40,682 nucleotides of DNA from Candidatus Tanganyikabacteria bacterium (GCA_016867235.1 VGJY01000014.1:1-40682); one strand, 5' to 3'; positions 2,621 to 21,560 are shown, counted from the stretch's first letter. The notes: generated from the letters alone by a model not told the origin. A program made the numbers and translations.

Positions 2621-5236
2621 GTGACACGTTCGCAGGACCGGGTCGTGGCCGAGATCCTCCTCTGGGCCCGGACCCACCGCCAGGGAGGATGCCTCTGGGT
2701 GGTCCGGCCGCACGACCCCGGAGTCCTGGAGGCGATCTCGGCGACCCTGAGGGCGAGTTGTGGTCTGGAGGTCGCAAATCCCTTGGCCTCGACCGATCGG
2801 AAAATCGCTGGCGAAGACCTGGTCGATACCGCGCTTCAGGAAAGCTGCAACGCCCTGTTGCGGCGCCGCCGGCTCGACGAGCTCCCCGGGTGGACGCCTT
2901 CTGCACTGCCCATGCTCCTGGCCCTGCTGGCCGACGGCGGGCCTGAGAGTCCGATGGCAATCGTGATGCCGGGCAGCCCGGATATCGCGCGGGTGGCGGC
3001 GGCCCTTCATGTTCCGGGACTGCTCTGGATCCTCGTGAGCGACGATTCGGCCGCCCTCGCGGAGATACTCGCGCCGGATCGCGGGGTGGAGCGCACTTCA
3101 CCGCATGTGGGGACGCCCCCGTCGGGGACGGCAGCGCGAGCGCCCGGACGGCGGGTGACGACGCTGGCGGGATGCCTGCAGGCCGCCCGGGAGAACCAGG
3201 AACTCCGCGATCTTGAGCCATTCGAGGTCTTCGAACTCCGGGGGCTGCCGAGCGCCTGGGCCCAGGCGGCGCGTTCGAGCTTGGCCTGCCTGGTCGCACT
3301 GGCCTGGCGACTTGATTTCGAGCGGCATGTCGGGCAAGCAGCCGAAACGCTCGATGCATGCTCGGAGGTCGTGCTCAGATGCTTGGCTGGTCCCCGCGAT
3401 CTCTCCGTCGCCGCCTGCCTGACGGCCATGTCGCCCGCCGCGCTGCACGAGTTCGCTCCCGGTCTGCTCGCCGCCGCCAGCCAGTCCCATGTGCTCGAGA
3501 CCGAGCGGCTAGCCCTGGCCCGCAGGCTGCTGCGAGCAGGCCGGACCGACGGCGCCCGCGCCCTTGCCGCGAGTCTGCGCGACGGCGCGCCGGGCCTCGC
3601 GCTGCGCCTGGAGGTGGCCCTCGCCGGCGGTGCGGCGCAGGAGGCGTGCGACCTGGGCGATCGGCTCGCGAAGGCGCTAGAGGGCCTGCCAGCGCCCGAA
3701 AATCACCGGGAACGGTGCACCCGCGCCGAACAGCGCGCGGTACTGGCTCTGGCCCGCTTCACGAGCGTGGGCAAAGAGGGCGCCAGCCCGATCCTGCGGT
3801 CGCTGTGCGAAGAAAGTGCCTACTGGTACGAAGCCGAACCCTGCCTGGCGGATGCCCTGTTGCGAGTCGGGGAGCACGCGAGCGCCCGATTCCGGCTGTC
3901 GTCGGCCTTGCGTATCCTGGACTTCCTTCAGGCGCCCGAAGCGGATCTGCCCGTGGCGAGTGCGCTGATCGGACGCTGGGCGGTGGAGATCGAGCCCCAC
4001 GACCTGCTGGCGGCCCTCTCGCCGCTCCGCCGCCCCTGGCTCCGGGCCGAACTGCTCGTCGCCGGCGCAAAAGCGTTGGCCCGGAGCGGGAAAGCCGCCG
4101 CCGGCCGGCAATTCTCTGACGCGGCGCTTGCCGCCGTGGGCCCCCCCGAGCAAGCCGTGATGAGCGCAGAGGAGCTTTCGAAGCTGCCCGCCATCATCGC
4201 GCGCGCGGCCGAGGCCCTCGCGGCGTGCGGGTATCGGGCCAAAGCTGTTGCGGCCCGCGACGACGCAGCCGCGGCGGCGGAAGCGCTACCTCCGGAAGCG
4301 AATCCCTTCTGGCTCCCCGCCGGGGAGGAGGCGCGGGGGATGGCATACCTGGCAATCGGGCAGGCTGCCCTGGCGGCCGGCGACCGCGAGGCGGCCGCCG
4401 GCTGGGCGAACCGGGCGGCGGCAGTGCTGACCGGGGGCCCGCAGATTCTGAGGAATTCCGTCGAAGACCTGCCCGATCTCGCGTTTCTCCAGGCCATGAC
4501 CCCGGGCAGCGAGGACTCCACGGGTGCCGTGGAATCGTGCTGGGGCAGGGAGGGGTTCTGGCTGGACATCATCGCCCGCCTGCTCGAGGCGGGAGAGACC
4601 GAGACAGCGATCCGCTACGCAGAGTTCATGACGCAACCGCACCGGGGGATCGATCCCGGGCCGGCGGAGGCCGACGCCGCGCTGGAGGCCATCCGGGCGG
4701 GGGAGCGAGAGGCGGCGGCGCACTTCGTCGTGGGGCGCCGGAAACGCACGAGCCGGCCCACTCCGGACGGCCGGGACTGGGAGCGAATCCTGGAGTCCCG
4801 TGGCGTGTACGAGGCACTTCGCTCGGCCCTGGGTATCGAGGGCGCGACCGAGCGGCGGCGGGCCTGGAGCACCCTTGCGCCCAAACTCGCCGGGCAATCC
4901 GAGCCGATCACGCCCCTGCTGGAAGCAGCTCTGAGCCAGGCCCTGCGCTGTCCGTTGCCGGAGAAGCGGCGGCGGCACGTGCTGAACCTCGCGGTGCTCT
5001 TTGCCAAGCTCGGTCGCGCCTGGGACTGCTTTCGCGCGACGGTGAGCCTCGGGGCAAACGAAGAGGCCCTGGAAGAGATCGCCCTTGCGGTCGCGGAAGC
5101 CGGCGATGCCGAGACCTTCTGCTGGCTCCTGCCTCTGTTTTCCGGTTCGCTGGCCGCGGCGAGGACCGCCAAGGTGCTGGCTTCCCTGGTGCCTGCCACG
5201 CCCGGCGACGGTCAGGGGAACGAAACACCCGGCTGA
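2621..5236 (+). CDS. Large helical-repeat protein with a possible degenerate NTPase-like N-terminal domain, 871 aa
   Basis: The GTG start at 2621 follows GGAGAAAGG at good spacing. Residues 1-165 have an alternating strand/helix pattern. The segment CLWVVRPHDPGVLEAI sits where a P-loop would be in a STAND or AAA fold but lacks the GxxxxGK[ST] motif. Later, MAIVMPGSPDI and LLWILVSDDS resemble Walker-B-type strands without the acidic pair. From about residue 210 to the end the sequence is Ala/Leu/Arg-rich helical repeats of TPR or HEAT type, such as ERLALARRLLRAGRTDGARA. This suggests a scaffold built on a catalytically dead NTPase-like head; the fold is inferred, not shown. It converges on the HEAT/WD40 gene with only 11 bp between stops. 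No exact family is recognised. Confidence 0.7.
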   Translation: MTRSQDRVVAEILLWARTHRQGGCLWVVRPHDPGVLEAISATLRASCGLEVANPLASTDRKIAGEDLVDTALQESCNALLRRRRLDELPGWTPSALPMLLALLADGGPESPMAIVMPGSPDIARVAAALHVPGLLWILVSDDSAALAEILAPDRGVERTSPHVGTPPSGTAARAPGRRVTTLAGCLQAARENQELRDLEPFEVFELRGLPSAWAQAARSSLACLVALAWRLDFERHVGQAAETLDACSEVVLRCLAGPRDLSVAACLTAMSPAALHEFAPGLLAAASQSHVLETERLALARRLLRAGRTDGARALAASLRDGAPGLALRLEVALAGGAAQEACDLGDRLAKALEGLPAPENHRERCTRAEQRAVLALARFTSVGKEGASPILRSLCEESAYWYEAEPCLADALLRVGEHASARFRLSSALRILDFLQAPEADLPVASALIGRWAVEIEPHDLLAALSPLRRPWLRAELLVAGAKALARSGKAAAGRQFSDAALAAVGPPEQAVMSAEELSKLPAIIARAAEALAACGYRAKAVAARDDAAAAAEALPPEANPFWLPAGEEARGMAYLAIGQAALAAGDREAAAGWANRAAAVLTGGPQILRNSVEDLPDLAFLQAMTPGSEDSTGAVESCWGREGFWLDIIARLLEAGETETAIRYAEFMTQPHRGIDPGPAEADAALEAIRAGEREAAAHFVVGRRKRTSRPTPDGRDWERILESRGVYEALRSALGIEGATERRRAWSTLAPKLAGQSEPITPLLEAALSQALRCPLPEKRRRHVLNLAVLFAKLGRAWDCFRATVSLGANEEALEEIALAVAEAGDAETFCWLLPLFSGSLAAARTAKVLASLVPATPGDGQGNETPG

Positions 5237-5247
5237 GGCCCCCGCCC

Positions 5248-7761
5248 TCACAGCGCGACGTCCGTTCCCTCTCCTGCCGGTACTCGCTCCCGGGTGTCCA
5301 GCCCCACGTCGCAGGTCATGCGGCCACTGGCCAGCGCGAGCGCCAGCTCGACCCAGGCGCGGTCGGCCCCTGCCAGTCCGCCGCCCCGGAGCGCGGCCTC
5401 CAGGCAGCGCAGCTCAGGCCACCGCACGCGATCGGCCGCGACCGTCCACAGCCGGCCGGCCGGGCTGGGCCAGAGACAGATGGCACTCACGCCCGACGCG
5501 GACGCCGCCAGGGAAAGCTGGCCGATCGCCACCGCTTCGACGTCGGCCGGGAAGCCCCTCACGCTCGCCTGCGGCGTGGCGGAGCCCGGCCGGTAGACGC
5601 CAACCGAACCCGAGGCGCCGCGGACCACCACGCGCTCGTCGGGCAGTAGGCCGGCCAGGTCGGCGGAGACCGGCGAAGCGTCGGCGTCCCGAAATCCCAC
5701 GGCCACCGGGGCGCCGGGCTGCGCCTTGCCAGAGTCGGCGCTCCACGAGGCCAGCCGGCCGCCGGGACCGGCCGTGGCGAGCCGATCCGACCCCACCCAG
5801 GCAAACGCCGCGAAGTGCTGCCCGTTTCCGCGCACCGGGATGGCGAGCGGCTTGCGGCCGGCCGCGGCGGCGCCGACCCAGGCGACAAGCAGCTGATCGC
5901 CGGCCAGCCACGCGATGCGCTGCCCGTCCGGGGAGAACGCGAGCCGCACGACCGGCGCTCCCCCCTGGGTCCAGGTACCCAGCCGCTCCCCGGAAACCGC
6001 ATCCCACGCGCGCACATGCCCATCCTCGGCCCAGCTGGCCAGAACGCCGCCATCGGGGCCAAACGCCAGGCCGACGACCGGCGCCTTGTGCCCGCGTAGC
6101 CTCAGCGGCGGCGCGCTCGGGTCCAGGAGCAAGGGCGGAAGCCCCTCGCAGGCGCCGGCGAGATCCCGCACCTTCACGTAGGCCGCCCGGTCGGCGGGCT
6201 CTGCCGGCAGCCAGTCGAGCTCCGCCAGCGGCCCGAGCGCGCGCCTCGCCCAGACGACGGGCGCCTGCCGGCTGAGTCGCCAGGCCTCGCCAGGCGCTCC
6301 CGCTCGCCACAGCAGGGCGAACGCGACCTCCCACTCGGCAGCGGTGAGGTCGGGGGCCCGCCGGCCTTCTTGCGGCCGCGCCACCGCCGCAACCCATGGC
6401 AAGCTGAGCGTCCGGAGCGCCTGCTCGCAGGCCCGGGCGCGCAGGCGTTCGGGACACGCCTGGAGGGCCGCGCCGAGCCGCTCTCCCTGCGGATCGCACC
6501 CGGCAAACGTCTCCGGCGTGCCGAGCAGGAAGAGGTGCAGCGCCCTTTCCTCGGGGACGCTCGGCAGGTACGCCGCCGCCTGTACCGTGCGCTGCGCCTC
6601 GGGATGATCCTCGTGGAGCGCCAGCCGGCAGAGCACATCGCTCGCGCGCGGATCGGTCAGCCGCAGGAGCGCCCGCCGAGCCGACACGGCCAACCTTGGC
6701 ACCTCCAGCGCGGCCAGCAGCGCCGGGACGCCCTCGGGTCCGAGCGTCCCGAGAAGGCGGTGGCAACCGTTGAGCAGTGCGGTGAACACGCGCGGCCGCA
6801 TGTCGCGCGTCCCATCCGACCCGGTCGCCTGGCCGCTCGCCACGTAGCCGCCCTCGACGATCGCGTCCTCGAGGGCATCGCGCCTCGCTTCGGACTTCTC
6901 GGCCACCCACGCCTCGCACACGCGATCGATCAGGGGCTGCTCGCCCAGGGTGCCCAGCAAGCCCAGCCAGGTGTCCCAGACGGCGCCGCGGAAGCGGTGC
7001 CCGTAGGCCAGGAGCGCATCCAGCTCGGCCAGCGTGAGCGTCACATTGCGCCGCGCCCGGCTGCGCGTCAGGACCGAAACCGCAAGTTTCCAGGTCTCCT
7101 GGTCCTCGCGGCCGAATCCCGGGGCCTCGTCGCCCGCTCCCGCGAAGAACGCCGAGCGCCGCGAAGCGGCGATGACGTCTCCAGCGGTGGGATCGGCCGT
7201 GCGTACCCACCAGTCGCACAGGGCGTTCCAGGCGTCCCGGCGCTCCAACCGCGAGAGGATGCGCCGGCCACGCTCGGCGAGGGCGGGCTCGGCGCTTCCC
7301 ACCAGGCGGAGCAGCGGGACCACAACGACCGGGCCGCCCGCGAGCAACCGCTCGGTCCCGGCCCCGTCCAGAAACGACTCCACCCGCGGCACCGGGCCGG
7401 GAAACCAGCTCGGGTTTGGCCTGGTACCCCGCTCGGGCCGCTCCCACAGGAGCGCAACGAGTTCCATGGCCTCGTGGGACCGGAGGCGCATCAGGTAGGC
7501 CCATGCTGCTGCGCGGACGTCCCCCTCCGGATCGTTGAGCGCCCACAGGAGAAACGGCACGATCCGCGGCCCCGGCGACGCCCACGGATCGGCCAGCCCG
7601 AACTTGAGATGCGCCAGGATGCGCAGATCGAGGGGCCCGGAAGCCCGCCACCCCCGTTCGCGGATCTCCCGCGCGAGCTCGCGATCCCGCGTCTCGGCCC
7701 AGCGGGCGATCGCCAAGTCGATGTCTGCCTGCGTGGCCGGCGCGCGCCGCGAGAACCACAC
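5248..7761 (-). CDS. HEAT-repeat plus WD40 beta-propeller scaffold protein, 837 aa
   Basis: This is the last gene of the chaperone operon. The upstream extension of the frame overlaps DUF1257. The GTG at 7761 lies 11 bases after the DUF1257 stop and follows a weak GAGAG, so it is taken as the start. Roughly residues 1-560 are helical HEAT/ARM-type repeats (IVPFLLWALNDPEGDVRAAA; GVPALLAALEVPRLAVSARR). From about 600 there are WD40 blades: LRLRGHKAPVVGLAFGPDGG, HVRAWDAVSGERL, VVRLAFSPDGQRIAW. No enzyme motif is visible. Such proteins act as binding platforms. Its place in the Hsp70/AAA+ operon suggests a client receptor or assembly scaffold (inference). The blades degenerate toward the C-terminus, so the propeller may have fewer than seven good repeats. 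Confidence 0.8.
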   Translation of the reverse strand: MWFSRRAPATQADIDLAIARWAETRDRELAREIRERGWRASGPLDLRILAHLKFGLADPWASPGPRIVPFLLWALNDPEGDVRAAAWAYLMRLRSHEAMELVALLWERPERGTRPNPSWFPGPVPRVESFLDGAGTERLLAGGPVVVVPLLRLVGSAEPALAERGRRILSRLERRDAWNALCDWWVRTADPTAGDVIAASRRSAFFAGAGDEAPGFGREDQETWKLAVSVLTRSRARRNVTLTLAELDALLAYGHRFRGAVWDTWLGLLGTLGEQPLIDRVCEAWVAEKSEARRDALEDAIVEGGYVASGQATGSDGTRDMRPRVFTALLNGCHRLLGTLGPEGVPALLAALEVPRLAVSARRALLRLTDPRASDVLCRLALHEDHPEAQRTVQAAAYLPSVPEERALHLFLLGTPETFAGCDPQGERLGAALQACPERLRARACEQALRTLSLPWVAAVARPQEGRRAPDLTAAEWEVAFALLWRAGAPGEAWRLSRQAPVVWARRALGPLAELDWLPAEPADRAAYVKVRDLAGACEGLPPLLLDPSAPPLRLRGHKAPVVGLAFGPDGGVLASWAEDGHVRAWDAVSGERLGTWTQGGAPVVRLAFSPDGQRIAWLAGDQLLVAWVGAAAAGRKPLAIPVRGNGQHFAAFAWVGSDRLATAGPGGRLASWSADSGKAQPGAPVAVGFRDADASPVSADLAGLLPDERVVVRGASGSVGVYRPGSATPQASVRGFPADVEAVAIGQLSLAASASGVSAICLWPSPAGRLWTVAADRVRWPELRCLEAALRGGGLAGADRAWVELALALASGRMTCDVGLDTRERVPAGEGTDVAL

Positions 7762-7772
7762 GGCGCAGTCTC

Positions 7773-8165
7773 TCAGGCCATCCGGCGCATCAGGAGCCGG
7801 ATGGCGCCATCCTGCTGCCGTTCCTCGACCACGTCGAAGCCTTGGTCGTGCAGCCTGGAAACCGTCGCGTGGTAAGCATAGCGCAGCGCGAGTCGAGAAA
7901 GCCAGGCTGCTCCGAGCTTGCCCCGGTCGACCGCCTCGATCCGGGCGACGTAGGTCCCGTCCGCCTCCCGCAGGAAGCCGAACTCGTACTGGTTTTGCTC
8001 CCCGGCCCGCACCACGACGTGCGCCTGGCCCTGCGCGCCCGGGTAGCCGCGCAGCGGCATCGGGTCGTCGCCCGATACCACGTCGTCGAAGCCCAGATCC
8101 TCGAGGGCCTTCTGCAGGGCCTCGCGATCTGCAAAGCGGGTCCGGATCCGCGTGTAGTGGCTCAT
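7773..8165 (-). CDS. DUF1257 (Ycf35-like) protein, 130 aa
   Basis: The start MSHYTRIRTRFADREAL, then LEDLGF, RGYPGAQGQAHVVV and QYEFGFLREADGTY, match the DUF1257 family, which includes Ycf35 of cyanobacteria and algal plastids. Members are about 110-140 aa. The central block is a small alpha/beta fold of unknown biochemical function. The C-terminal part (LALRYAYHATVSRLHDQGFD) is the conserved tail helix region. The ATG at 8165 overlaps the stop of the radical SAM gene by four bases (ATGA) and follows AGGAG at 8 bases, so the two are likely translationally coupled. DUF1257, DUF2997 and a Ycf46-type ATPase in one operon is the strongest clue that these three act together. No catalytic residues are proposed. 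Confidence 0.85.
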   Translation of the reverse strand: MSHYTRIRTRFADREALQKALEDLGFDDVVSGDDPMPLRGYPGAQGQAHVVVRAGEQNQYEFGFLREADGTYVARIEAVDRGKLGAAWLSRLALRYAYHATVSRLHDQGFDVVEERQQDGAIRLLMRRMA

Positions 8166-8788
8166 TTCCCAAGCTCCTGTGGTGACATCGCGACCGGGTC
8201 GATGCCGGTCGCGACGAGGGTGCCGTCCGGGTTGATAACGACCTCGCAATCCGGCACATTCCGGAGATCGTCTGGCGAGTACCGGTCGGTGAAGAAGTGG
8301 GGGACCTTGTTGGCCGAGCCCAGGAGTCCCCGAGCCAGACGCTCGGCCGCGACGAAGCGCCCCGCCAGCAGGATGTCGATGTGCTCCCGCAACTCGGGGA
8401 ACTCGGGCAGGCGGCTCAGCTCGGCTAAAGAGAACCCGCTGAAGACGACGACCGACAGCCGCGTGCGCCGCCGGATCTCTCGCAGCAGGTCGAGCAGGGC
8501 GGCTGGCTGCAGAAACGGCTCCCCGCCGCTGATGGTGATGCCCTCTACGTCCGGGGCCAGCGCGGCGATGCGATCTCCGAGGCCGGGTGTCGACCACTCC
8601 TCGCCCCCCGCGAACGAATGCGAGGCGGGATTGAAGCAGCCGGGGCAGCCCAGGGAGCAGCCCTGCACCCAGACGACGGCCCGGACCCCCGGGCCGTTGG
8701 CGCGACTCGCGGCCAAGAAGCCATGCACCCGGAGCGCCGGCCCGGCGCGGCTGGAGCGCGAGCCAGTGCGAGGCCCCCGCTCACCCAC
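8162..8788 (-). CDS. Radical SAM protein, NrdG/PflA-like activase type, 208 aa
   Basis: The motif CSLGCPGC (Cys 44, 48, 51) is the radical SAM CxxxCxxC that binds a [4Fe-4S] cluster. It is preceded by RANGPGVRAVVWVQG, as in anaerobic ribonucleotide reductase activases, and followed by ITISGGEPFLQP, the SAM-binding GGE motif. The length fits the minimal activase class without extra cluster domains. The GTG at 8788 overlaps the DUF2997 end by 8 bases and follows GGAG; a GTG at 8806 is an alternative. Classical members activate a glycyl-radical enzyme, but none is encoded in this window. The partner may therefore be elsewhere, or the protein may modify a component of the operon (inference). The Cys motif is unambiguous; the substrate is unknown. 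Confidence 0.88.
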   Translation of the reverse strand: MGERGPRTGSRSSRAGPALRVHGFLAASRANGPGVRAVVWVQGCSLGCPGCFNPASHSFAGGEEWSTPGLGDRIAALAPDVEGITISGGEPFLQPAALLDLLREIRRRTRLSVVVFSGFSLAELSRLPEFPELREHIDILLAGRFVAAERLARGLLGSANKVPHFFTDRYSPDDLRNVPDCEVVINPDGTLVATGIDPVAMSPQELGK

Positions 8789-8981
8789 GCTGGCTCTGCT
8801 CCACACGCTGCGCCACGGCCTCCTCGAAGGCCTCCGGCTTGAGGGTGCGCTCGCCCTGGCCCCCGAGGGCCTGCTCGAGTTCGTGCGTGAGCACCGTGCA
8901 ACTCATCCCCGCGACTCCGAGCACCTCGATGCTCACCTCGCCGGTCGGCCCGATGACCACCGCGATCTCCTGCAACTGCAT
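8781..8981 (-). CDS. DUF2997 family small protein, 66 aa
   Basis: The protein reads MQLQEIAVVIGPTGEVSIEV, then GVAGMSCTVLTHELEQALG and a charged tail. This follows the DUF2997 pattern of two beta strands around a GxGxV turn, a conserved small-residue/Cys segment, then a helix. The Cys in GMSC is the usual conserved position. ATG at 8981 is chosen because AGGAGG lies 9 bases upstream; a GTG two codons earlier is too close to it. The AGGAGG overlaps the 3' end of the AAA+ gene, so the genes are tightly packed. DUF2997 genes often sit beside DUF1257. The biochemical role is unknown; a small partner or carrier protein is possible. Confidence 0.8.
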   Translation of the reverse strand: MQLQEIAVVIGPTGEVSIEVLGVAGMSCTVLTHELEQALGGQGERTLKPEAFEEAVAQRVEQSQRG

Positions 8982-8987
8982 TTGCAC

Positions 8988-10544
8988 TTACCTCCTGTCG
9001 GTCCGCCCGCCGGGCAGCACCTCGATGCGCACGCAGCGTTGCTCCGCCTCGCGCGCCTCCTCGAAAGATGCGGATCGCGCCCGCCCCTCGCGGAGCCACG
9101 AGCGCAGTTCGTCGACGCTCTCGCGCTGCGAGACCGACAGCGGCACCTGGCGCTCGAAGGCCGCGCCGATGTCCTGTGTGGTGAACTCGCGGTCCTCGCT
9201 GAATGCGACGTACATCGCCTCGACTATCGCCTGCTCTATTTCGGCGCCCACGAAGCCCTCGGCGCGGGCCGCCAAGCGGGCGACGTCGAACGCGCCGACC
9301 GCTCGGCCGCGCTTGCGCAGGTGTACGGCGAGGATTTCCATGCGTTCCTCGAGCGTGGGCAGATCCAGGAAGAAGATCTCGTCGAAGCGGCCCTTGCGCA
9401 GCAGCTCGGGCGGGAGCCGGCCGATGTCGTTGGCCGTGGCAACCACGAAGCAAGGCTTCGCCTTCTCCTGCATCCAGGTCAGGATGGTGGCGAACACGCG
9501 GTTGCCCGTGCCTCCGTCGAGGCCGCCGGTCGCGAAGGCCTTCTCCATCTCGTCGATCCACAGCACGCACGGGGCCAGGGCCTCGGCCACGCGCAAGGCG
9601 CGCCGGGCCCGCTCTTCGGACTCGCCAAGCAGGCTGCCGAACAGGGCGCCGGTGTCGAGCCGCAGGAGGGGCAACCGCCATAGGCCGCCGATCATCCTGG
9701 CCGTCAAGCTCTTGCCGGTGCCGGGGATGCCGATGAGCGCGACGCCCCTGGGCACCGGCAGCCGGTACTCCCGCGCCTCGCGGCCGAAAGCCCGCTCGCG
9801 CGCCGCCAGCCACAGCTTGAGCACGCCGTTGCCGCCCACGTCGTCGGCCGACCCGGCCACCGGAAAGAACTCGAGCGCCTCGCTCTCGCGCACGATCTGC
9901 TGCTTGTCGGCCGTCACCAGGTCGATGGCGCGGTCGTCGAGGGTGCCCTCGGCCGCGACGACCTGGCAGAAGGCGCGCCGCGCCTGCGCGACGGTCATGC
10001 CGAGCGCGGCCTGCACGAGCTTCTCCCGGCCCAGGGGCGTGAGCGCCGACCGGACGCCGGGGCTACCGAGTAACGCTCCTAGCACTTCCTCGACGTCCGT
10101 GGCGTCGGGAAGCGGCATGTCGAGGACTACCGCGACGTCGCGCAACTCCTCCGGGATGCGCCCGGACGGCGCGAGCACTATCAGCGACCGCGACGTGTAC
10201 TTCAGCCGCTGCGCGACCGCCCGCAGCTTGCGACGGGCAGGCGGCGCCGTCCAGCAATCGTGGAAGTCGGGCAGCACGACGAGGGCGTTGCCGTCGAGGC
10301 GTTCGACGTGGTCGAGGGCGGTGAGGGGATCGCGCGCCGCCGGCAGGGAGTCGCGCATGGGAGTCACGGCCCGGAAGCCCTCGGCGACGTCCCAGGACAG
10401 GCACGGGCGCTGCGTGCGCGAGCATAGCTCGGCGATGATCTCCATGGCCCGCTCTTCCTCGACCGTCGCGACGACGATGAGCGTGAAGCGGGCGCGCACC
10501 AGGGTCGCGAGCCGCTGCGCGAAGGTCGAGTTTGGTACTTCCAC
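8988..10544 (-). CDS. Ycf46-like AAA+ ATPase, 518 aa
   Basis: The whole length aligns by eye with Ycf46. An N-terminal domain (residues 1-160) begins RARFTLIVVATVEEERAMEI and contains LVVLPDFHDCW. A linker carries LEFFPVAGSADDVGG. The AAA+ module has Walker A GIPGTGKS (272-279), Walker B VLWIDEME (327-334), sensor 1 ATAND (369-373) and the arginine-finger region LRKGRFDE (382-389). The C-terminal AAA lid carries GFVGAEIEQAIVEAMY. Ycf46 proteins are soluble ATPases known from cyanobacteria and plastids, with no settled biochemical substrate. The start is GTG with no clear ribosome-binding site. It lies 27 bp after the Hsp70 gene and directly before DUF2997. All catalytic residues are present, so it should be an active, probably hexameric, remodelling ATPase. 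Confidence 0.9.
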   Translation of the reverse strand: MEVPNSTFAQRLATLVRARFTLIVVATVEEERAMEIIAELCSRTQRPCLSWDVAEGFRAVTPMRDSLPAARDPLTALDHVERLDGNALVVLPDFHDCWTAPPARRKLRAVAQRLKYTSRSLIVLAPSGRIPEELRDVAVVLDMPLPDATDVEEVLGALLGSPGVRSALTPLGREKLVQAALGMTVAQARRAFCQVVAAEGTLDDRAIDLVTADKQQIVRESEALEFFPVAGSADDVGGNGVLKLWLAARERAFGREAREYRLPVPRGVALIGIPGTGKSLTARMIGGLWRLPLLRLDTGALFGSLLGESEERARRALRVAEALAPCVLWIDEMEKAFATGGLDGGTGNRVFATILTWMQEKAKPCFVVATANDIGRLPPELLRKGRFDEIFFLDLPTLEERMEILAVHLRKRGRAVGAFDVARLAARAEGFVGAEIEQAIVEAMYVAFSEDREFTTQDIGAAFERQVPLSVSQRESVDELRSWLREGRARSASFEEAREAEQRCVRIEVLPGGRTDRR

Positions 10545-10571
10545 GGAAAGGTAACGGCGGGCGGCGCGCGA

Positions 10572-12167
10572 CTATTGCAGCCTCACCACCGGGAAGTCGC
10601 GATGGGTCAGCCGATCGCGGCGGAGGTCGCGGACGGTGACCAGCAACCGCTTCTGCGCGTCCACCGCGAATGCCACCTCGAAGCGCGTCTCGCCCTCGCG
10701 AGCGGGGGGTTCGGCCTCCAGGAACGTCGGGGAGTGCTCGTTGATCCAGAAGGCCGAGCGATTCTCCTCCTGGTCGGGCGTGACGGGCGCCAGGCGGACA
10801 GCGCCCCCGGGGTCGAAGACGATTTCGAGGCCCCCGGTGGGGCCGCGGCCCGCGCGCTCTCCCATCTCGAACAGCGCCAGGCCGAGGCGGGACTGGCCCT
10901 CGTACGTGGCCTTGATCCGGAGGGTGCGAAGCGCGTCGTGGCTGGGATAGGGCGTCCCGCGCCGGACCACCGGCTCGAAACGGTAGCCGCCGGTCTCGAG
11001 GTCCACGTAGCGGATCGCATAGTCGTGCTGGATGTGGTCGTAGAAGTCCACGCCCGATACGAAGGCGGCAGCGCCGCGCGCCACCGCGTCCAGCGGCCGA
11101 TCGAGCATGACCCGGTCGCGTCCGAAGATTCGCCGCAAGGTCGCCTGCACGGCGGGGATCTGACTGCTGCCGCCGACCAGCAGCACGGCCTTGATGCGCT
11201 CCTCCGCGTAGCCGCGCTCCCGGGCGTCGTTGAGCGCGCGGCGCAGCGTCCGATCGAGGTCGGCGAACATGTCGTGCCGGTCCAGTAGCTCTTCGAACTC
11301 ATGGCGCGTGAACTCGGCGGAGAGGGCCCGCCCCGTGCGCGGGTCCACCACCGTGACGTCAGCACGCTCGTGCTGGCTGAGCCGCTCCTTGGCCCGCTCG
11401 CATTCCACAAGGAGCGCGCGGCCCAGCAAGCGCACTTCCGGATCGTCGGGCCGCCGGCCGACCCGCCGGAGGACCTCCTCGAACAGCCACTGGTCGACCG
11501 TGGCGCCCCCCAGGTCGCGGCCGGCCTTGCCCAGCATCCGGCAGCGCCGGCCGGTGGCCACCGCCGGATCCTCGGCCTCGACGAGCACCACCGCGACGTC
11601 GAGGGTGCCCCCGCCAAAATCGAAGACCAGATACACGTCGCCCGGCTGGATGTGCGCACCGTAGCCCAGGGCGGCCGCCGAGGGCTCGTCCACCACGCGG
11701 AACCGCGAGATGCCGGCCTCCTCGGCCACCCGCGCGAGCCAGTCCTCGTAGTACTCGAAGGCCTCGACCGGGACGGTGAACGCGACCTCCTCGTCGCCCA
11801 CGCCAAGCACCGCGGCGGCCTGGCCCAGGACTTGCGCCAGGAAGTCTCGGCCGGCGTCATGGTGCGTTATTCGCCGGCCATCGACCATCACCGGTACCTG
11901 GGTCCGCGACGAGATGTAGCGCTTCATCCACCGGAACGTCCGGTCGGACGAGTAAAGGTTGTTGCGGTGCACCTGGTGGCCGACCCAGTGCTGGCTGTCG
12001 GCCGAGTAGTGGATGAGGGAGGGTACGAGCGCCAGGATCTCGGCACCCTGGCCCTGGCCGCGCGTCAGGTCGGGCAGGATCAGCGTGTCGGCCTCCTTGC
12101 GCGCCGCGTCCCAGACCGCGAGCACGGTGTTGGACGTGCCGAAGTCGACGGCCAGCCGACCCGCCAT
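10572..12167 (-). CDS. Divergent Hsp70-family chaperone, 531 aa
   Basis: The nucleotide-binding domain is complete: phosphate-1 loop DFGTSN (8-13), connect-1 VVDEPSAAALG (158-168), phosphate-2 DFGGGTLD (183-190), connect-2 helix CERAKERLS (256-264) and adenosine motif VGGSSQIP (331-338). Residues 370-531 are beta-rich and correspond to a substrate-binding beta domain (for example RRGTPYPSHDALRTLRI). The protein then stops, so the helical lid of DnaK (about 640 aa) is absent. ATG at 12167 lies one base after the GrpE-like stop, which implies coupling. ATPase activity is expected; substrate release without a lid would differ from DnaK. This is a specialised paralogue rather than the housekeeping dnaK, given the neighbours and lack of a J-domain gene. 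Confidence 0.9.
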   Translation of the reverse strand: MAGRLAVDFGTSNTVLAVWDAARKEADTLILPDLTRGQGQGAEILALVPSLIHYSADSQHWVGHQVHRNNLYSSDRTFRWMKRYISSRTQVPVMVDGRRITHHDAGRDFLAQVLGQAAAVLGVGDEEVAFTVPVEAFEYYEDWLARVAEEAGISRFRVVDEPSAAALGYGAHIQPGDVYLVFDFGGGTLDVAVVLVEAEDPAVATGRRCRMLGKAGRDLGGATVDQWLFEEVLRRVGRRPDDPEVRLLGRALLVECERAKERLSQHERADVTVVDPRTGRALSAEFTRHEFEELLDRHDMFADLDRTLRRALNDARERGYAEERIKAVLLVGGSSQIPAVQATLRRIFGRDRVMLDRPLDAVARGAAAFVSGVDFYDHIQHDYAIRYVDLETGGYRFEPVVRRGTPYPSHDALRTLRIKATYEGQSRLGLALFEMGERAGRGPTGGLEIVFDPGGAVRLAPVTPDQEENRSAFWINEHSPTFLEAEPPAREGETRFEVAFAVDAQKRLLVTVRDLRRDRLTHRDFPVVRLQ

Positions 12168-12168
12168 G

Positions 12169-12702
12169 CTAGCGCTCCCCCGCGGCCGAGACGATCCCCG
12201 CCTCGACCCCGGCCTTGCGCAGCACATGCTCGCCCATTCGCAGGCCGGGAATCCGGATCACCACTTTCTGCCCGGGTGCCGGCACAGCGCCCTCGCCGAC
12301 CGGCTCGTGCCGGCCGGGATCGAACCGAGCGGCCTCGCCGGAACCGCCGACGAGCTCGATGCCGTGGTCGCCCAGCACCCGCACCAGGCGCCGCACGACC
12401 GCCATCACGTCGCCGGGCTCGAGCGCGCCAACTCCCGCCTGCAGCAGGTGCGCCTGCGTGGCGAGCAAGGCGACGGGCCCGGCCAGATCCGCCAGCAACG
12501 GCTCCACCGCGGCCTGCACGGCGACGACCCGGCGCCCGCACTCACCTGCACGCTGGCGCTCGAGATCGCCCTGCAGCTGCGTCAACGCGGCACGAACCTC
12601 TGCCAGCTCCAGCCGCAGCGCCTGGGCCTCGCCCTCGGCGGCGAGGCGGGCAGGGCGATCACGCCGCCAGTGAAGCAGCTCCCGCCAGAACGGCCAGTCC
12701 AT
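12169..12702 (-). CDS. GrpE-like nucleotide exchange factor, 177 aa
   Basis: The C-terminal domain carries the GrpE signature RFDPGRHEPVGEG (126-138) followed by VVIRIPGLRMGEHVLRKAGV, the beta wing that contacts the Hsp70 nucleotide-binding domain. Residues 20-60 form a charged helix suited to a short coiled coil (ALRLELAEVRAALTQLQGDL). The middle is helical. GrpE speeds ADP release from Hsp70. Direct linkage to the Hsp70 gene (one base apart) supports a dedicated pair. ATG at 12702 follows GAGAGG at 9 bases. It is the first gene of the minus-strand operon and diverges from the GTPase operon. Sequence outside the signature is far from housekeeping GrpE. Confidence 0.88.
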   Translation of the reverse strand: MDWPFWRELLHWRRDRPARLAAEGEAQALRLELAEVRAALTQLQGDLERQRAGECGRRVVAVQAAVEPLLADLAGPVALLATQAHLLQAGVGALEPGDVMAVVRRLVRVLGDHGIELVGGSGEAARFDPGRHEPVGEGAVPAPGQKVVIRIPGLRMGEHVLRKAGVEAGIVSAAGER

Positions 12703-12783: not shown

Positions 12784-12846
12784 GAATAACGACGAGCCCC
12801 CCGCCGTTTGCTGGCCAGGTTCCGGCACTCGAACAGGAGGACTCGA

Positions 12847-14517
12847 ATGACCCGCCTTTCCGCCGTCGATCGCGCTCGCCAGGAGGCTCGCGAGGTCGTG
12901 GCCGAAGCCAACAGCCTGCTCGCCGCCAGCGGCCTCCCGCAAGTCGAGTGCGCACGCGCCCCCGAACGCCTGTCCATCGCCCTCATGGGCCGCTACAACG
13001 CGGGCAAGAGCACGATCGCCAACGCCCTGCTGGGCGAGCGCCTGGCGGCCACGGGCGATCGCCCCGAGACCAAGCTCCGTCGGACCTACGACTGGCGAGG
13101 GTTCCGCCTGGTCGACCTGCCCGGCACCGACGCCCGGATTGCCGATCAGCGCGAGGTGGAAGATGCGCTCACGGGCGCCCACGCGGTGCTCTACGTCGTC
13201 AGCTCCCGCACCGGCTTCGACGGCCGCGGGCTCTGGGACGATCTCCTCGTCCTCGAGGAACGCCACGTGCCGTGTCTCCTGGTCGTCAACGACAAGCAGG
13301 CCCACCAGACCACCGAGGGCGAGCAGGCCTTCCGCGAGGCCGTCCTGGCCAACTTCGACAAGCTGGCGCACCAGCATCTCGGGCGGAGCCATACCGTGTT
13401 CTGGGTGCGGGCCAAAGAAGCCGAGCTGGCGCGCACCGGCGGCCGGCCGGAACTGGAGGCGCACAGTCGCATCGAGCCCCTCGAGGAGGCGCTGATCGCG
13501 GCGCTGACGCGCAACGACCCCCTGCTCCGGGACGGCGCCGCGCTGCAGCCGCTTGCCGACGCCCTGGCCCGCGTCGAGGCCGGCCTGCGGGGCGATCTCG
13601 CCGCCGGCGAGACGCAAGAGCTGGCCAGAATGCTCGAGGACGTCGGCGGCGCCACGCAGACGCTGATCGACCTCTCGCAGGTCGTCGCGCAGGAATGCTT
13701 CGGCGGCCTGGCCGATCACCTCGCCGCCCGGATGGACCTGGCCGCCCGCTGCGAGGCGGCCGACCGCGACGGCGTGGTGAACGACCTCGAGGCGCTGATC
13801 GATGCGCAGCTCGAGACCGCCGGAGCCGCGTTTGGCAAGCAGGCGGCCGCCCGCATCGGCGCCCTGGCCGGAGCCCTCGGAGGCCACTCTGTCGAGCCGG
13901 GCGAGCCCAGGCTGGCCGGCTCGGTGCGCCTTGGGGACATCCCGGGCTGGAACGGAGAAGGCGCCGACTGGCGCAAGGTTCGTGACAACATCGCCGAGAG
14001 CGCGAAGCGGGCGATCGGGTTCATGGAAGCCGCCGCGCTCGCCGGCCAGCGGATCTATGCCGAACTGCCCGGAGCGGGCGGCATCAAGGCCATCTCGGCT
14101 GGCGGCAAGGCGGCCCGGGAAGTCGCCCGGGCCGGATCCTCCACGGCGACCGTCATGGCCCGCACCGCGCAGGTCGTCGGCGTCGTGATGGTGGCCGTGG
14201 AGGCTGGCATCGAGATCGCCGAGGGCTTCGCGGCGGCCGAACGGGAAAAAGCCGCCATGGTTTCCGTGGCGAAGGCGTCGCGAGCGCAAGCCGACATCGC
14301 GGCGAACTCGGCGCGGCACGTCTTCCTGGCTGCCGCGGCCGAACTCGTGTTCAGTAACCTCGGACCGCTTGCCGGCGAGATCCGGAAGGGCCTCGGCGTC
14401 GCCCGGCGGGCCGAGCGGTCGACGGCGGGCAAGCTCGGGGAGGTGTCGGCGCTGCGCGGGCGCATCGGCCAGGTCCGGGCGGCGCTGCGGACGCACTGCC
14501 GGTGGTCTCATGAGTAG
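12847..14517 (+). CDS. Dynamin/Era-like large GTPase, 556 aa (GTPase 1)
   Basis: ATG at 12847 follows AGGAGG with ideal spacing; an upstream in-frame start at 12808 has none. The G domain shows G1 GRYNAGKST (48-56), a Thr-containing G2 region around 75-80 and G3 DLPGT (90-94). At the G4 position the sequence is VVNDKQ (146-151) instead of canonical NKxD, so base recognition may be altered. The C-terminal 400 residues are helical with hydrophobic Ala/Val stretches (VVGVVMVAVEAGIEIAEGF), suggesting a stalk and membrane contact as in bacterial dynamin-like proteins. It is the first of three overlapping GTPase genes, whose ends overlap by 8 and 4 bases. A role in membrane remodelling is inferred from the family. 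Confidence 0.82.
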   Translation: MTRLSAVDRARQEAREVVAEANSLLAASGLPQVECARAPERLSIALMGRYNAGKSTIANALLGERLAATGDRPETKLRRTYDWRGFRLVDLPGTDARIADQREVEDALTGAHAVLYVVSSRTGFDGRGLWDDLLVLEERHVPCLLVVNDKQAHQTTEGEQAFREAVLANFDKLAHQHLGRSHTVFWVRAKEAELARTGGRPELEAHSRIEPLEEALIAALTRNDPLLRDGAALQPLADALARVEAGLRGDLAAGETQELARMLEDVGGATQTLIDLSQVVAQECFGGLADHLAARMDLAARCEAADRDGVVNDLEALIDAQLETAGAAFGKQAAARIGALAGALGGHSVEPGEPRLAGSVRLGDIPGWNGEGADWRKVRDNIAESAKRAIGFMEAAALAGQRIYAELPGAGGIKAISAGGKAAREVARAGSSTATVMARTAQVVGVVMVAVEAGIEIAEGFAAAEREKAAMVSVAKASRAQADIAANSARHVFLAAAAELVFSNLGPLAGEIRKGLGVARRAERSTAGKLGEVSALRGRIGQVRAALRTHCRWSHE

Positions 14518-15217
14518 CCCGTCGGAGGGGGCTCGCGTGCGTGATCGCCGCCTTGGCTATCGCGTGGTGGCCACGGGGATCGTCAACTCGGGGAAGTCGG
14601 CGCTCCTCTCGGCCCTGGCCGGGCAAACCGGCCTGTTCCCTTCGGCCGACGTACCCGGTTGCACTGCGAAAGTGACGACGGAGCCGGTCGGACCTTGGCT
14701 GCTGGTGGACACGCCCGGGCTGGACGGGCCCGGCAACCCGCTTCCAGAGGTGCTTGGCGAGGTCCGGAAGGCCGACACCGTGCTATGGTGCCATTCCCTG
14801 CGCCAGGGGGAGCTAAGGCCCGGGGAACTGGCAGCCCTGGCTCAGATGCGCCTCGCCACGGCATGGCGCACCTGCTTCGTCCTGACTCACGCCGACGACC
14901 CGCCCGATCCCGACCGCCAGGCGATCGTCTCCGGGCGCATGGCCGCGCAGCTCGCGGAGGCGTTCGGTCTGGCCATGAGCCCCGCTGGGCTCATGGGCCG
15001 CGATCCGGGGATCGGGCCCCGGCGATGCCTGCGCCCGTTCGACATCGTCGGCGTCAAGGCCTACTGGCTCGCGCACTCCCGGAGCGGCGAAGCGCGCGCC
15101 GCCTTGCTCGCGTGCTCGGGCATTCCGCGCTTGCGGCGCTTTCTGGACCATCTCGCGGCCGGCCATGGCCCCCGCAGCGACGCACGGCCACCCGCAACCT
15201 CGGAGGTACTTGCATGA
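14510..15217 (+). CDS. Small Era/TrmE-like GTPase, 235 aa (GTPase 2)
   Basis: The G domain nearly fills the protein: G1 GIVNSGKS (23-30), G2 Thr in GCTAKVT (50-56), G3 DTPG (67-70) and a G4-like THAD (126-129) in which His replaces the usual Lys. The C-terminal 80 residues are mixed and end in a Pro/Ala tail. ATG at 14510 overlaps the end of GTPase 1 by 8 bases; its own stop overlaps GTPase 3 by ATGA. No ribosome-binding site is needed if translation is coupled. The frame is open upstream to 14369, but that part lies inside GTPase 1. Small Era-like GTPases next to dynamin-like ones may act as regulators or recruit partners (inference). Confidence 0.8.
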   Translation: MSSPSEGARVRDRRLGYRVVATGIVNSGKSALLSALAGQTGLFPSADVPGCTAKVTTEPVGPWLLVDTPGLDGPGNPLPEVLGEVRKADTVLWCHSLRQGELRPGELAALAQMRLATAWRTCFVLTHADDPPDPDRQAIVSGRMAAQLAEAFGLAMSPAGLMGRDPGIGPRRCLRPFDIVGVKAYWLAHSRSGEARAALLACSGIPRLRRFLDHLAAGHGPRSDARPPATSEVLA

Positions 15218-17109
15218 TGTCGACGTCGGTCCCCGGGATGGCGCCCGCGGCCTGGAGCCGCTGGGTCGACACCCTCGCCCACTTCGAGGCCGCCACCGCC
15301 GGGGGCGCGGCCGGCAAGGCCCAGCGCCGCCTGCTCGAATCCCGCGTCCGCAAGTTGCGGACCGAACTGGCGGGCACTGCCTCGCCGGGCCTACCGAAAG
15401 GCACGCCGCACGGTCTCGAAGCCAAGCTCCGGGAGCTGATCGGCGGGCTGCGCGCCGGGCAGGCGCGCCTGGTGGACGATGTCGCGGCGGCCCTCGAGGA
15501 CATCGAGCAGGCGGCAGAAAACGAGGATCGGCTCGTGGTGCTGGTCTTCGGCGAGGTCAACGCCGGCAAGACCGCCCTCGCGCTCCACATGGCCGGCTGG
15601 GATTTCGACGTGCCCCGGCGCGGCCGCCTCTTCTGCGGTCCCGATCTGGACTGCGCCCGCCGCCTGGTCGAGTTCCCCGTCGAGGCGACGCGTGAGTATC
15701 AGGGCTTTCGCCTGCCCGGGCTGCTCTGGATCGATTGCCCCGGGGTCTCGAGCTGTACGGCCGAAAACGCCAGGCTCGCCCGGCGGCTGGTCAGCCGCGC
15801 CGACCTGATCCTCTTCGTCACCAGCTCGGACGCCCCTTTCAAGCCGAGCGAAATGGCCGAACTCGCCCGCCTCGTCCGGGCCGGGGGGTCGCCGGATCTC
15901 GCGGGCCTCCTCGTCATCACCCAGTTCGACGAGGCGCTTCCGGACTACGATCCCGCAACCCGGAAGGTGACCTGGAGCCTGGTCCGCAAGGGGTCCTACG
16001 AGCAACAGGCGGCCTGGGCGCTGGAATCGCTCCGCGAAGCCGGCCTCGCGCACCTCGTCGCCGACCGTCCGCCCCTGGCCGTCAGCACCCACCTGGCCCG
16101 CGAGACGCTCGGTCTGGAATGGACCACGGGCAAGCCCCTGCGCGTCCCGGCGGCCGGCTGGGAGCCCGCCTACGCGGCATCGGGCATTCCGGCGCTGTGT
16201 GCCGCTCTGGACGAAATCGTCAAGACGCGGGGGCGAGAGCTCAAGGCCTCCTGGCCGCAAAAGCGCGAGGCGGCGCTCAGCGCGCGCCTGGAAGACACAT
16301 TCGGCGGGTCGCTTGCCGCCCTCGCCCAGATCGGCGCGCAGCTCGACAAACTGGCCCGGGACCTAGATCTCGCCGGAGAGCGGGCAGCGCAGGAGGCGTC
16401 GGAGCGCGCCGCGGGACGGGTGGCTCCGTGTCTCGGCGGCAACGGCATCTACCGCGGGGACTTCGACGCGAAAACCGCTCGCCGCGAACTCGCCGACCAC
16501 CTGCGCCGCCGGGTCGACGAAGCCGTCCGCAGGCATGCCGGGCGGGTCCTGGACAGCAACCTGCGGTCGCTCGACCGGGAGCTCGCGGCCTACGACGCAA
16601 CTATCCGGCTGGAAATCGATCTGCAGCGCAAAACCCGCACCATCCGGCGGACCAGCACGACCCGGGGCCGCGCGGTGGGCGGGGCGACAGGGGCGGCGGC
16701 GGGAACGCTCGCCGGGGCCTGGGCCGGGGCAGAAGGCGGGGCGGCCCTGGGCACGCTCTTCCTTCCCGGGCTCGGCACGGCGATCGGCGGCATCCTCGGC
16801 GGCCTGCTGGGCGCCGTCTTCGGCGGAGCCGGCGGCAGGGCCGTCGGGCGCTGGGCGGGTGCGCAGGTGCAGGAAACCCAGGTGGTCGAGGTACCCGCGG
16901 GCTCCAACGCCGCAGACGTCGTCGACAAGGCCACACGCAAGGTGGGCAAGGCCGCAGGGCGACTCGTGCGCGAGCGGTTCGCCCTATTGAAGGGGAGTGT
17001 CGTGATTCCGTTACAGCGTGAGGTCAAGGCGCTCGCGGACACGGTGGAAGGCTGGCTCGCGACGTTCGGCACGCCGCACCGCGCGGCCGGGTCCCGTCGC
17101 GCCAGCTAG
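15214..17109 (+). CDS. Dynamin-like GTPase with C-terminal glycine-zipper membrane segment, 631 aa (GTPase 3)
   Basis: ATG at 15214 follows GGAGG and overlaps the previous stop (ATGA). An N-terminal helical region (1-105) precedes the G domain: G1 GEVNAGKT (113-120), G3 DCPG (174-177), G4 TQFD (236-239, Gln in place of Lys). The middle is a long helical bundle. Residues about 486-549 are a glycine zipper (TGAAAGTLAGAWAGAEGG; AIGGILGGLLGAVFGG), a pattern that inserts into membranes as a helical hairpin. This supports a membrane-active dynamin-like protein. After the zipper an amphipathic tail follows. The stop codon lies in a CTAG palindrome shared with the stop of the convergent STAND gene, so the genes overlap by four bases. 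Upstream in-frame sequence from 14659 lies inside GTPase 2. Confidence 0.83.
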   Translation: MMSTSVPGMAPAAWSRWVDTLAHFEAATAGGAAGKAQRRLLESRVRKLRTELAGTASPGLPKGTPHGLEAKLRELIGGLRAGQARLVDDVAAALEDIEQAAENEDRLVVLVFGEVNAGKTALALHMAGWDFDVPRRGRLFCGPDLDCARRLVEFPVEATREYQGFRLPGLLWIDCPGVSSCTAENARLARRLVSRADLILFVTSSDAPFKPSEMAELARLVRAGGSPDLAGLLVITQFDEALPDYDPATRKVTWSLVRKGSYEQQAAWALESLREAGLAHLVADRPPLAVSTHLARETLGLEWTTGKPLRVPAAGWEPAYAASGIPALCAALDEIVKTRGRELKASWPQKREAALSARLEDTFGGSLAALAQIGAQLDKLARDLDLAGERAAQEASERAAGRVAPCLGGNGIYRGDFDAKTARRELADHLRRRVDEAVRRHAGRVLDSNLRSLDRELAAYDATIRLEIDLQRKTRTIRRTSTTRGRAVGGATGAAAGTLAGAWAGAEGGAALGTLFLPGLGTAIGGILGGLLGAVFGGAGGRAVGRWAGAQVQETQVVEVPAGSNAADVVDKATRKVGKAAGRLVRERFALLKGSVVIPLQREVKALADTVEGWLATFGTPHRAAGSRRAS

Positions 17110-20100: not shown

Positions 20101-20333
20101 ATGGCGACGACCAAGCGCAGCAGCAGCTCGGCGGTATCGCAGATCCGCCACAGCCTGACGATGGGGTGCGTCTCAGTGTCCATCTCGGAGAGCGGAATCG
20201 CGATCACCGAGGGGAGGGTGTCGAGGTCCACGCCGGCGCTCGGAGCCGGCGTCGCCTCGCTGACACCGTGCTCCGGGCAGACCGCGAACCGGCCGACTAC
20301 CTGGAGTTTCGTGGCGCAAACCTTGCACTGCAT
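17106..20333 (-). CDS. STAND NTPase with N-terminal zinc ribbon and HEPN-like motif, 1075 aa
   Basis: Residues 1-22 contain CxxC and CxxH (Cys 3, 6, 19, His 22), a likely zinc ribbon. A helical domain (about 55-200) carries LRNRLAHG with Arg160, Asn161 and His165, matching the RNxxxH pattern of HEPN ribonucleases, although similar motifs occur in non-catalytic helical domains. The STAND NTPase has Walker A GRPGTGKS (369-376), Walker B VVFLLDGLDE (458-467) and VVWVCAGRPEP after it. The C-terminal half is TPR-like repeats (GAAQAQLEAGLPALFPG; PAAARQAWEAGLALP) that would sense a ligand. STAND proteins are signal-triggered switches in defence and regulation. ATG at 20333 is used; its ribosome-binding site is weak. 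It converges on GTPase 3. Confidence 0.82.
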   Translation of the reverse strand: MQCKVCATKLQVVGRFAVCPEHGVSEATPAPSAGVDLDTLPSVIAIPLSEMDTETHPIVRLWRICDTAELLLRLVVAIAASELDTAGGISESLAELVASRIERPTLHQWLEMASTLAQGVESTVGSGAVVPELRATVDEVLFGLVAGRRKGEEESVLDLRNRLAHGAGFGREAGESLLPGYRERLLGAVRELRWLTEVKLVASGAGGEPVILAGPRFPAVVGTADLSAAAREALAARGGEVALVRGERVVALWPLQAYLRPELLRTRRGDTVAGEDPVPLVYAKRQGSRLEMTGLGSSMPVSELRGSAVDRLEQLFRIAEIAGLRRDAPDDFREEFRREAEALVGRADVCSRIDAAVRAARSGVLWLHGRPGTGKSAVMARMAIDLEGAEGRGQRLVAYRFRAGDRRSTRAKFLRYAVGRLESWRRLGVPRTDLPDDPRRLERRLGDLLRVVAPPLRVVFLLDGLDEIARIDPEFPELPLQHAGDGVVWVCAGRPEPALDRLYETAGCTRIFPGDGLPGLSDREVDEWLKRDAPAPQRDMIVRQEAREGGVAPWIVAVRRQSGGLPAYITLLLDDLCTFEVAVGQITPSGLPAYFDSLLARSGVDDPAATLPLLMAVVALAVEAPAAETIAEVLARAGHLKAATASQHQAIVQEALARARAMIRTIATAPEAYLPYHDELTAHLLETPSLRNARAAVAEGWKSLAADPGGAGATARKQAYAAGIRQLVRLEDDESALRLFSDFAYHERRAADLGPGAALAVLDDLAIVHAQIAYRRDAAFDAYMSFLSRASRPAAWKRCWPAVATRRLIAAAFLGRHAGILRRQGDLGAAQAQLEAGLPALFPGPKAPAALFQEYGRLEYELGYVRFLLGDLAGARRWLDLSSDRAALAGDEVGAWIGRCVKAHFETQYEEIGADRFDAILQAAHAVFATERWNPVAERWVMNCLAHRFDAAFWRGDRDAAEGLGASLLAHSWVAKFGGPRFSGPILARLALLRGDPAAAAGAFREVLEGAPEDGPARARTESLARVYLEFGDALLAAGSPAAARQAWEAGLALPADCGNHPWWARIRARVAQID

Positions 20334-20443
20334 CGCCGCATGGAGGATCCCATGCCTGGCGCTTCATGATCCAGGCCGTCGTCCGACGGCCGGCAACCAC
20401 CGACGTGAGATGATGGGGGCGGCCGGAGGTCATCACCCTGCAC

Positions 20444-21178: not shown

Positions 21179-21281
21179 AGTCCCTTCCAAGGCCGGCCGT
21201 TTTTCCTGCCCCCCGGGAGATTCCCCGCCCCGGAACTACCGCCCCGTCCGCTTGCCTCTCCGGACGGAAGGGAGGTACCGG

Positions 21282-21410
21282 GTGCCGGGCGGATCGCTGG
21301 TCAAGACCCTGTTGCAACTGGCCGTCATCCGCAACCAGCGCTCGGCAGCCGCCGCGCTCACGACTCGCGCCGCGATCGCGTCGAGCCCACTCATAGCGGC
21401 GCTCAAATGA
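21282..21410 (+). CDS. Putative small protein, 42 aa
   Basis: A short frame starts at GTG 21282, six bases after a strong GGGAGG, and stops at 21408-21410. The product has a basic, hydrophobic first half (SLVKTLLQLAVIRNQR) and an Ala/Ser-rich second half (AAIASSPLIAALK), consistent with an amphipathic or membrane-associating helix. No family is recognised. Support is the ribosome-binding site and composition only; it could be chance in GC-rich DNA. It lies between the hydrolase and the convergent double AAA+ gene. Confidence 0.35.
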   Translation: MPGGSLVKTLLQLAVIRNQRSAAAALTTRAAIASSPLIAALK

Positions 21411-21430
21411 CCTGGCGCCTACCGGACGCA

Positions 21431-21481: not shown

Positions 21482-21560
21482 GGCCGCGATGCCGGAGCGA
21501 AGTCATCAGAGCCGCGCTATCAGGCCCGGGTTCGCGGGTAGCGCCCTTCACCTCTTCGCC

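Follow-up and report, generated by a model that had tools for sequence, protein, structure and literature searches.

The sole phenotype on record for the AAA+ protein Ycf46 is one of carbon use, in Synechocystis (Jiang et al. 2015, cited in PMC7496141). In cyanobacterial cluster g, the genes for DUF2997 and Ycf35 (DUF1257) adjoin fed7, which encodes a ferredoxin-like protein; two-hybrid tests show Fed7 binding to a DnaJ-like protein, DnaJ-Fed7 fusions occur in algae, and mutants without fed7 tolerate oxidative, metal and iron stress less well (PMC4284462). Neither Ycf35 nor DUF2997 has an assigned biochemical role. Here we describe an operon in a stretch of 40,682 nucleotides (the window) from Candidatus Tanganyikabacteria bacterium (GCA_016867235.1, VGJY01000014.1:1-40682), in which DUF1257, DUF2997 and a relative of Ycf46 are encoded together with an Hsp70, a GrpE-like protein, a radical SAM protein and a HEAT/WD40 protein. 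The set recurs as a cassette in Bacteria and Archaea. We read it tentatively, at somewhat less than an even chance, as a dedicated protein-remodelling machine of Hsp70/p97-like character, switched through an iron-sulfur (Fe-S) partner that acts on the invariant cysteine of DUF2997. A cassette joining these families is undescribed in the literature searched, which took in few subscription papers and preprints; just three papers there name DUF1257 or DUF2997, and none was found to treat Ycf46 and DUF2997 together.

Seven minus-strand genes run from 12702 to 5248 in one tight series, and each of the seven that the earlier note had drawn from the sequence is confirmed within that span:

12169-12702, minus strand: GrpE-like nucleotide-exchange factor, 177 amino acids, with a coiled-coil N-terminus and an FDPGRHEP beta-wing (NCBIfam GrpE models, PF01025 in relatives, profile against structures)
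10572-12167, minus strand: divergent Hsp70, 531 amino acids, with the ATPase domain and, at the C-terminus, a short stretch similar to the beta substrate domain (PF00012, 5e-36)
8988-10544, minus strand: Ycf46-type classic AAA+ ATPase, 518 amino acids, with a conserved N-terminal domain, Walker A GIPGTGKS and Walker B LWIDE (PF00004, 2e-25)
8781-8981, minus strand: DUF2997, 66 amino acids, predicted strand-strand-helix, with an invariant Cys28 opening the helix (PF11211, 7e-15)
8162-8788, minus strand: minimal radical SAM protein resembling NrdG and the pyruvate formate-lyase (PFL) activating enzyme, 208 amino acids, motif QGCSLGCPGCFNP (Fer4_12, 7e-29; Radical_SAM, 4e-7)
7773-8165, minus strand: DUF1257 (Ycf35 family), 130 amino acids, with an invariant N-terminal Met-Ser-His (PF06868, 1e-14)
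5248-7761, minus strand: scaffold of HEAT repeats and a WD40-like propeller, 837 amino acids (WD40 5e-7, above the Pfam cut-off; HEAT_2 1e-4, below it)

The Pfam matches to HSP70, AAA and Fer4_12 exceed their cut-offs, as do those to DUF2997 and DUF1257. Adjacent genes overlap by up to 8 bases or lie up to 27 bases apart (-8, -4, 1, 6, 11 and 27 bases). One base separates the GrpE-like gene from Hsp70, 27 bases separate Hsp70 from AAA+, and 6 bases separate AAA+ from DUF2997. The 8-base overlap joins DUF2997 to the radical SAM gene, which starts at a GTG at 8788; a 4-base ATGA overlap follows between radical SAM and DUF1257, and then an 11-base gap before HEAT/WD40. The likely start of this last gene is the GTG at 7761; a longer open reading frame (ORF) reaching 8259 would overlap DUF1257. 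A longer relative of the scaffold (L088) matches HEAT_2 at 2e-19 and has the propeller as well.

About 85,000 species genomes were scanned with three aligned AAA+ proteins as the sole query, so neighbouring genes were not selected for. The best 80 loci were retained, out of a larger number of matches, and their genes were labelled by means of profiles built up from the proteins of the window; many loci are cut by contig ends. These best 80 span at least 14 phyla, bacterial except for one group of methanogenic archaea, and cassette hosts include Anaerolineae, Streptomyces, Verrucomicrobiota, Planctomycetota and Methanolinea. Among 47 long loci, HEAT/WD40 was labelled in 44, by a profile that may over-reach owing to repeats, DUF1257 in 41, Hsp70 in 36, DUF2997 in 34, radical SAM in 31 and GrpE in 14; GrpE and radical SAM are optional parts. 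When all candidate frames are counted, 39 of 48 long loci have at least three of the six further families, and 31 have five or six. Neighbouring pairs share a strand in 273 of 277 cases, with a median gap of 6 bases. Because it recurs across phyla, the linkage is far beyond chance, and the neighbourhood survey proposed in the earlier note, run here from AAA+ alone, has found repeated linkage with Hsp70/GrpE and radical SAM.

Pairwise distances of the cassette parts correlate (rho 0.37-0.68, with 0 of 200 permutations reaching the observed value), so the genes moved or descended together, and the cassette behaves as a unit. Gene order varies among lineages; content and co-divergence persist in two domains. 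A close AAA+ occurs in 39 of the 147 Anaerolineaceae searched, 27 of the 81 Methanoregulaceae and 5 of the 199 Streptomyces. One Chloroflexota copy is 72-76% identical to copies from Streptomyces, Glycomyces, a planctomycete and a cyanobacterium, and methanogen and Anaerolineae cassettes have fixed housekeeping neighbours. On these comparisons the cassette is accessory, horizontally spread and locally stable. One locus (L110, 10573-12429) carries a complete EcoRI restriction-modification gene pair between AAA+ and DUF1257, absent from its close relatives L111 and L115.

The host genome, 6.12 Mb and estimated to be 100% complete, has no photosystem reaction-centre family, nor do its searched order- and class-mates. 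Since the family is found in four genomes of the same phylum, a cyanobacterial relative that does not photosynthesise is the most likely identity of the host. The link to oxygenic phototrophs drawn in the earlier note is not supported in that form: given this absence and the cross-phylum spread, we reject a phototroph-specific reading, and families related to Ycf46, Ycf35 and DUF2997 are not confined to such organisms. No close Hsp70 and no close DUF2997 occur in four other genomes from the family to which the host belongs. Same-order and same-class relatives that carry DUF2997 (L032-L038) have no cassette genes near it and are uninformative about the cassette.

The relation to Ycf46 was examined in a FastTree tree of 128 AAA+ proteins. 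The window AAA+, nearly all scan matches and two cyanobacterial extra copies form one cross-phylum clade (support 99), sister to a clade of cyanobacterial core Ycf46 copies; lying outside the core clade, the window protein is rejected as Ycf46 proper. It has the full-length N-domain and classic AAA+ domain with Walker motifs, the cassette AAA+ is about 43-49% identical to core copies and shares their full-length architecture, and the nearest solved structures are p97/Cdc48 (8e-45). The AAA+ that the earlier note called Ycf46-like belongs to a sister clade of Ycf46 and is not Ycf46 proper. The core clade takes in the single full-length copy from each of two small picocyanobacterial-type genomes, and also Hsp70-linked cyanobacterial copies (L066, L070, L071), which have Hsp70, GrpE, DUF2997 and DUF1257 linked. 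Because these fall within it, the four families are tied to members of this clade as well.

Other cyanobacterial arrangements were seen. The Hsp70-linked copies repeatedly have repeat proteins of HEAT or LRV type (NPNTPLELLQQLARD repeats) as neighbours. A further Ycf46-like AAA+ paralogue (L178, L180, L181) is adjoined by a DUF1257 gene and has no Hsp70 context. In L040, L041 and L044, AAA+, DUF1257 and DUF2997 lie in an apparently phage- or plasmid-derived region with common uncharacterised genes.

DUF2997 of the operon scores 55.1 bits against a PF11211 cut-off of 24.1. Cys28 is found in 87 of 87 relatives, Gly14 is invariant and Gly25 nearly so. The AlphaFold model, with a mean predicted local distance difference test score (pLDDT) of 73 and about 80 across residues 1-50, places Cys28 where the sole well-predicted helix begins, a position that would favour a reactive thiolate. 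Fold recognition against the PDB returned no significant match for DUF2997 or DUF1257, nor did sequence profiles. In long cassette loci radical SAM is strictly dependent on DUF2997, being present in 32 of 35 loci with DUF2997 and 0 of 13 without it (p 3e-9); the two genes, overlapping in the window, are often adjacent across cassettes. The radical SAM protein belongs to the superfamily by its Pfam matches and its CxxxCxxC motif, found in 57 of 57 relatives. It matches the PFL-activating enzyme at 7e-9, reaches 87 bits against the NCBIfam NrdG cut-off of 126.1, and scores under every NCBIfam cut-off for known activases. Of the radical SAM activase named in the earlier note, the intact CxxxCxxC stands; its place in the cassettes is only optional. 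With DUF2997 it makes a small two-protein system for direct test of possible radical modification.

DUF1257 scores 54.9 bits against a PF06868 cut-off of 22.2, and its AlphaFold model has a mean pLDDT of 91.5. Ser2 and His3 stand at 100% among 60 cassette copies, the Met-Ser-His start being nearly invariant; removal of the methionine would expose an N-terminal Ser-His that could bind metal. Two different DUF1257 genes occur in some cassettes (L088 at 7760 and 10528, L112 at 7281 and 7783, L078 at 4855 and 7640), one copy lying by DUF2997 and, in L088 and L078, the second after the AAA+ region. Gut Melainabacteria-type genomes retain radical SAM, AAA+, DUF2997 and a divergent DUF1257, the last recognised when profiles were compared (96% probability, E 2e-9).

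The cyanobacterial DUF2997-Ycf35 pair adjoins a small ferredoxin-like protein (L060, L061, L065, L067, L068), the Fed7 of PMC4284462. Given the radical SAM protein of the cassette and the Fed7-DnaJ link, DUF2997/DUF1257 are brought together with an Fe-S protein and an Hsp70 system in two independent arrangements. No 4Fe-4S ferredoxin is among the operon genes, and none was found beside the Hsp70-linked cyanobacterial copies by a CxxCxxCxxxC motif scan, which also misses Fed7-type proteins.

The window GrpE-like protein by itself matches weakly (Pfam, 0.012; NCBIfam GrpE models, 5e-7, under cut-off), and its identity is convincing only because a profile of the family was used. All 10 of 10 cassette relatives match PF01025 (best 4e-11), and their profile finds the solved GrpE structures 4ani and 1dkg (7e-9 for 1dkg), so that coiled coil and beta-wing are recognised by way of the relatives. 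The Hsp70 has the ATPase domain of DnaK-type proteins and aligns to DnaK over residues 91-409, with a weak stretch at 483-516; it is too short for the C-terminal alpha-helical lid, which is unaligned, and cassette Hsp70s are mostly 525-549 amino acids. Since the host encodes two other ordinary, full DnaKs, the operon Hsp70 is dedicated, just as the earlier note held; the GrpE it had recognised by the signature FDPGRHEPV is upheld as a homolog, though not as a constant member. A DnaJ gene adjoins Hsp70 and AAA+ in four rumen Anaerolineae loci, all without DUF2997 and radical SAM; elsewhere DnaJ is sporadic and distant, and we reject it as a constant part of the cassette.

Hsp70 and GrpE use ATP to cycle clients, p97-class AAA+ rings unfold proteins, and HEAT and propeller repeats bind partners. 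In the remodelling machine proposed here, Hsp70 and the GrpE-type exchange factor would bind and then release client proteins, a p97-like hexameric AAA+ ring would pull them apart, the HEAT/propeller protein would act as scaffold or client adaptor, and DUF1257 and DUF2997 would form a small regulatory, regulated or adaptor pair. The Fe-S partner, which would be the NrdG-like radical SAM protein in the cassette and the ferredoxin Fed7 in the cyanobacterial version, would target Cys28 and change its state, and the machine or its client handling would be switched by redox or iron status. We infer here a physical complex, an order of action, the cysteine chemistry, the client proteins and the radical SAM target. 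The comparisons do establish the gene content, the intact ATPase and radical SAM motifs, the recurrent linkage, the joint divergence in sequence and the dependence of radical SAM on DUF2997, while the ferredoxin-DnaJ tie comes from the literature; these speak for the proposal, as do the set retained by gut Melainabacteria-type genomes, the DnaJ gene of the rumen Anaerolineae loci and the host's two other DnaKs. Several observations weigh against this proposal. GrpE is labelled in fewer than a third of the long loci (14 of 47), and some cassettes are altogether without radical SAM and DUF2997. The DUF2997 cysteine is conserved also where radical SAM is absent, so a radical step cannot be its sole role. 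Hsp70s of the DnaJ-flanked rumen loci score nearer ordinary DnaK, and no client protein is encoded with the cassette.

The linkage suggests a place within a chaperone system for three orphan families of cyanobacteria and algal plastids; since many phyla keep relatives of theirs together with Hsp70, GrpE and an Fe-S enzyme, they gain a concrete, testable role in redox-controlled client remodelling. A broader claim, that a two-domain-wide proteostasis system has a radical SAM enzyme modify the tiny cysteine protein DUF2997 and so control a dedicated Hsp70/AAA+ unfolding machine, with plastid ycf35 and ycf46 descended from its parts, seems to us rather unlikely.

Of the alternatives, a system that matures a single enzyme or cofactor fares best, and we consider it unlikely. 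The radical SAM protein would install a modification or radical on DUF2997 or on an enzyme encoded elsewhere; Hsp70, AAA+ and scaffold would merely open the client, as do HscA, in Fe-S assembly, or the activases of stalled enzymes. The NrdG/PFL-activase type of the radical SAM protein and its strict tracking of DUF2997 suit such a role, and an Hsp70 with an Fe-S protein and a small cysteine protein recalls the Isc set. Yet no linked gene encodes a glycyl-radical enzyme or a recognisable client, the DUF1257-DUF2997 pair is also kept where ferredoxin takes over from radical SAM, and the failure to reach any activase cut-off also counts against it.

Improbable, too, is a role in biological conflict, as an anti-phage system of the chaperone-threshold type known from multicellular prokaryotes. 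Patchy cross-domain spread, seen in the Streptomyces, Anaerolineaceae and Methanoregulaceae fractions above and in the absence from four host-family relatives, would fit, as would the LeoA-like GTPases and the STAND NTPase among the window neighbours and the presence of Hsp70/GrpE and radical SAM in other such systems (PMC7159879). The cassette nevertheless has no effector domain, keeps its fixed position among housekeeping genes in methanogens and Anaerolineae, and gives weak, partial PADLOC matches; related DUF1257, DUF2997 and Ycf46 genes are retained in the examined picocyanobacterial-type genomes. Described members have an effector with a MoxR-vWA or GTPase core (PMC7159879), and no such gene is among the recurrent neighbours, the window GTPases being non-recurrent. 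A cluster formed by chance, or a loose housekeeping one, with no shared function, which differing gene order might suggest, is contradicted by the linkage counts, the distance correlations and their persistence across two domains, and can be given almost no weight.

Around the operon, two LeoA/LeoBC-like (dynamin-type) GTPase genes (12808-14517 and 14510-15217, plus strand) lie divergently, 105 bases upstream, and an 871-amino-acid ORF (2621-5236, plus strand), without a Pfam, NCBIfam or PADLOC match, converges on the last gene across an 11-base gap. Homologues of the GTPases and of this ORF are absent among the fetched loci, and both were rejected as cassette parts. Conflict-type and repeat genes fill 17106-31857, possibly a genomic island: a STAND/NACHT NTPase (17106-20333), a winged-helix double AAA+ (21580-23883), a DUF6745 protein (24954-26375), a PQQ propeller, and a RecQ with HRDC and HEAT repeats (27881-30811), with a tRNA-Asp at 31768 and flagellar FlgE/FliK genes thereafter.

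Compared with known systems, the cassette shares chaperone parts, superstructure repeats and radical SAM vocabulary with Hsp70/GrpE GTPase conflict systems and FtsH ternary systems; none described there (PMC7159879) has Ycf46, DUF1257 or DUF2997, and the cassette is without MoxR, vWA or effector. NrdG and the PFL activase share the minimal radical SAM fold and CxxxCxxC with the cassette protein, which differs in falling short of the 126-bit cut-off, in its partner DUF2997 and in having no linked glycyl-radical enzyme. Cluster g likewise sets DUF2997 beside DUF1257 and an Fe-S protein, with a two-hybrid tie to a DnaJ co-chaperone, but it is without Hsp70, GrpE, AAA+ and HEAT protein, and ferredoxin replaces radical SAM (PMC4284462). 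DnaK-DnaJ-GrpE with ClpB, and p97/Cdc48 with its cofactors, offer the same combination of Hsp70, exchange factor and AAA+ ring, p97/Cdc48 being closest in solved structure; the cassette differs in its single AAA domain with a Ycf46 N-domain, its Hsp70 too short for a lid, and the added DUF and radical SAM proteins. Ycf46 itself (slr0374 and plastid homologues) is like the cassette AAA+ in full-length architecture, in sequence identity and in forming its sister clade; core Ycf46 loci (about 4.4 kb) are without linked Hsp70 or radical SAM, whereas the cassette AAA+ has a cross-phylum clade of its own.

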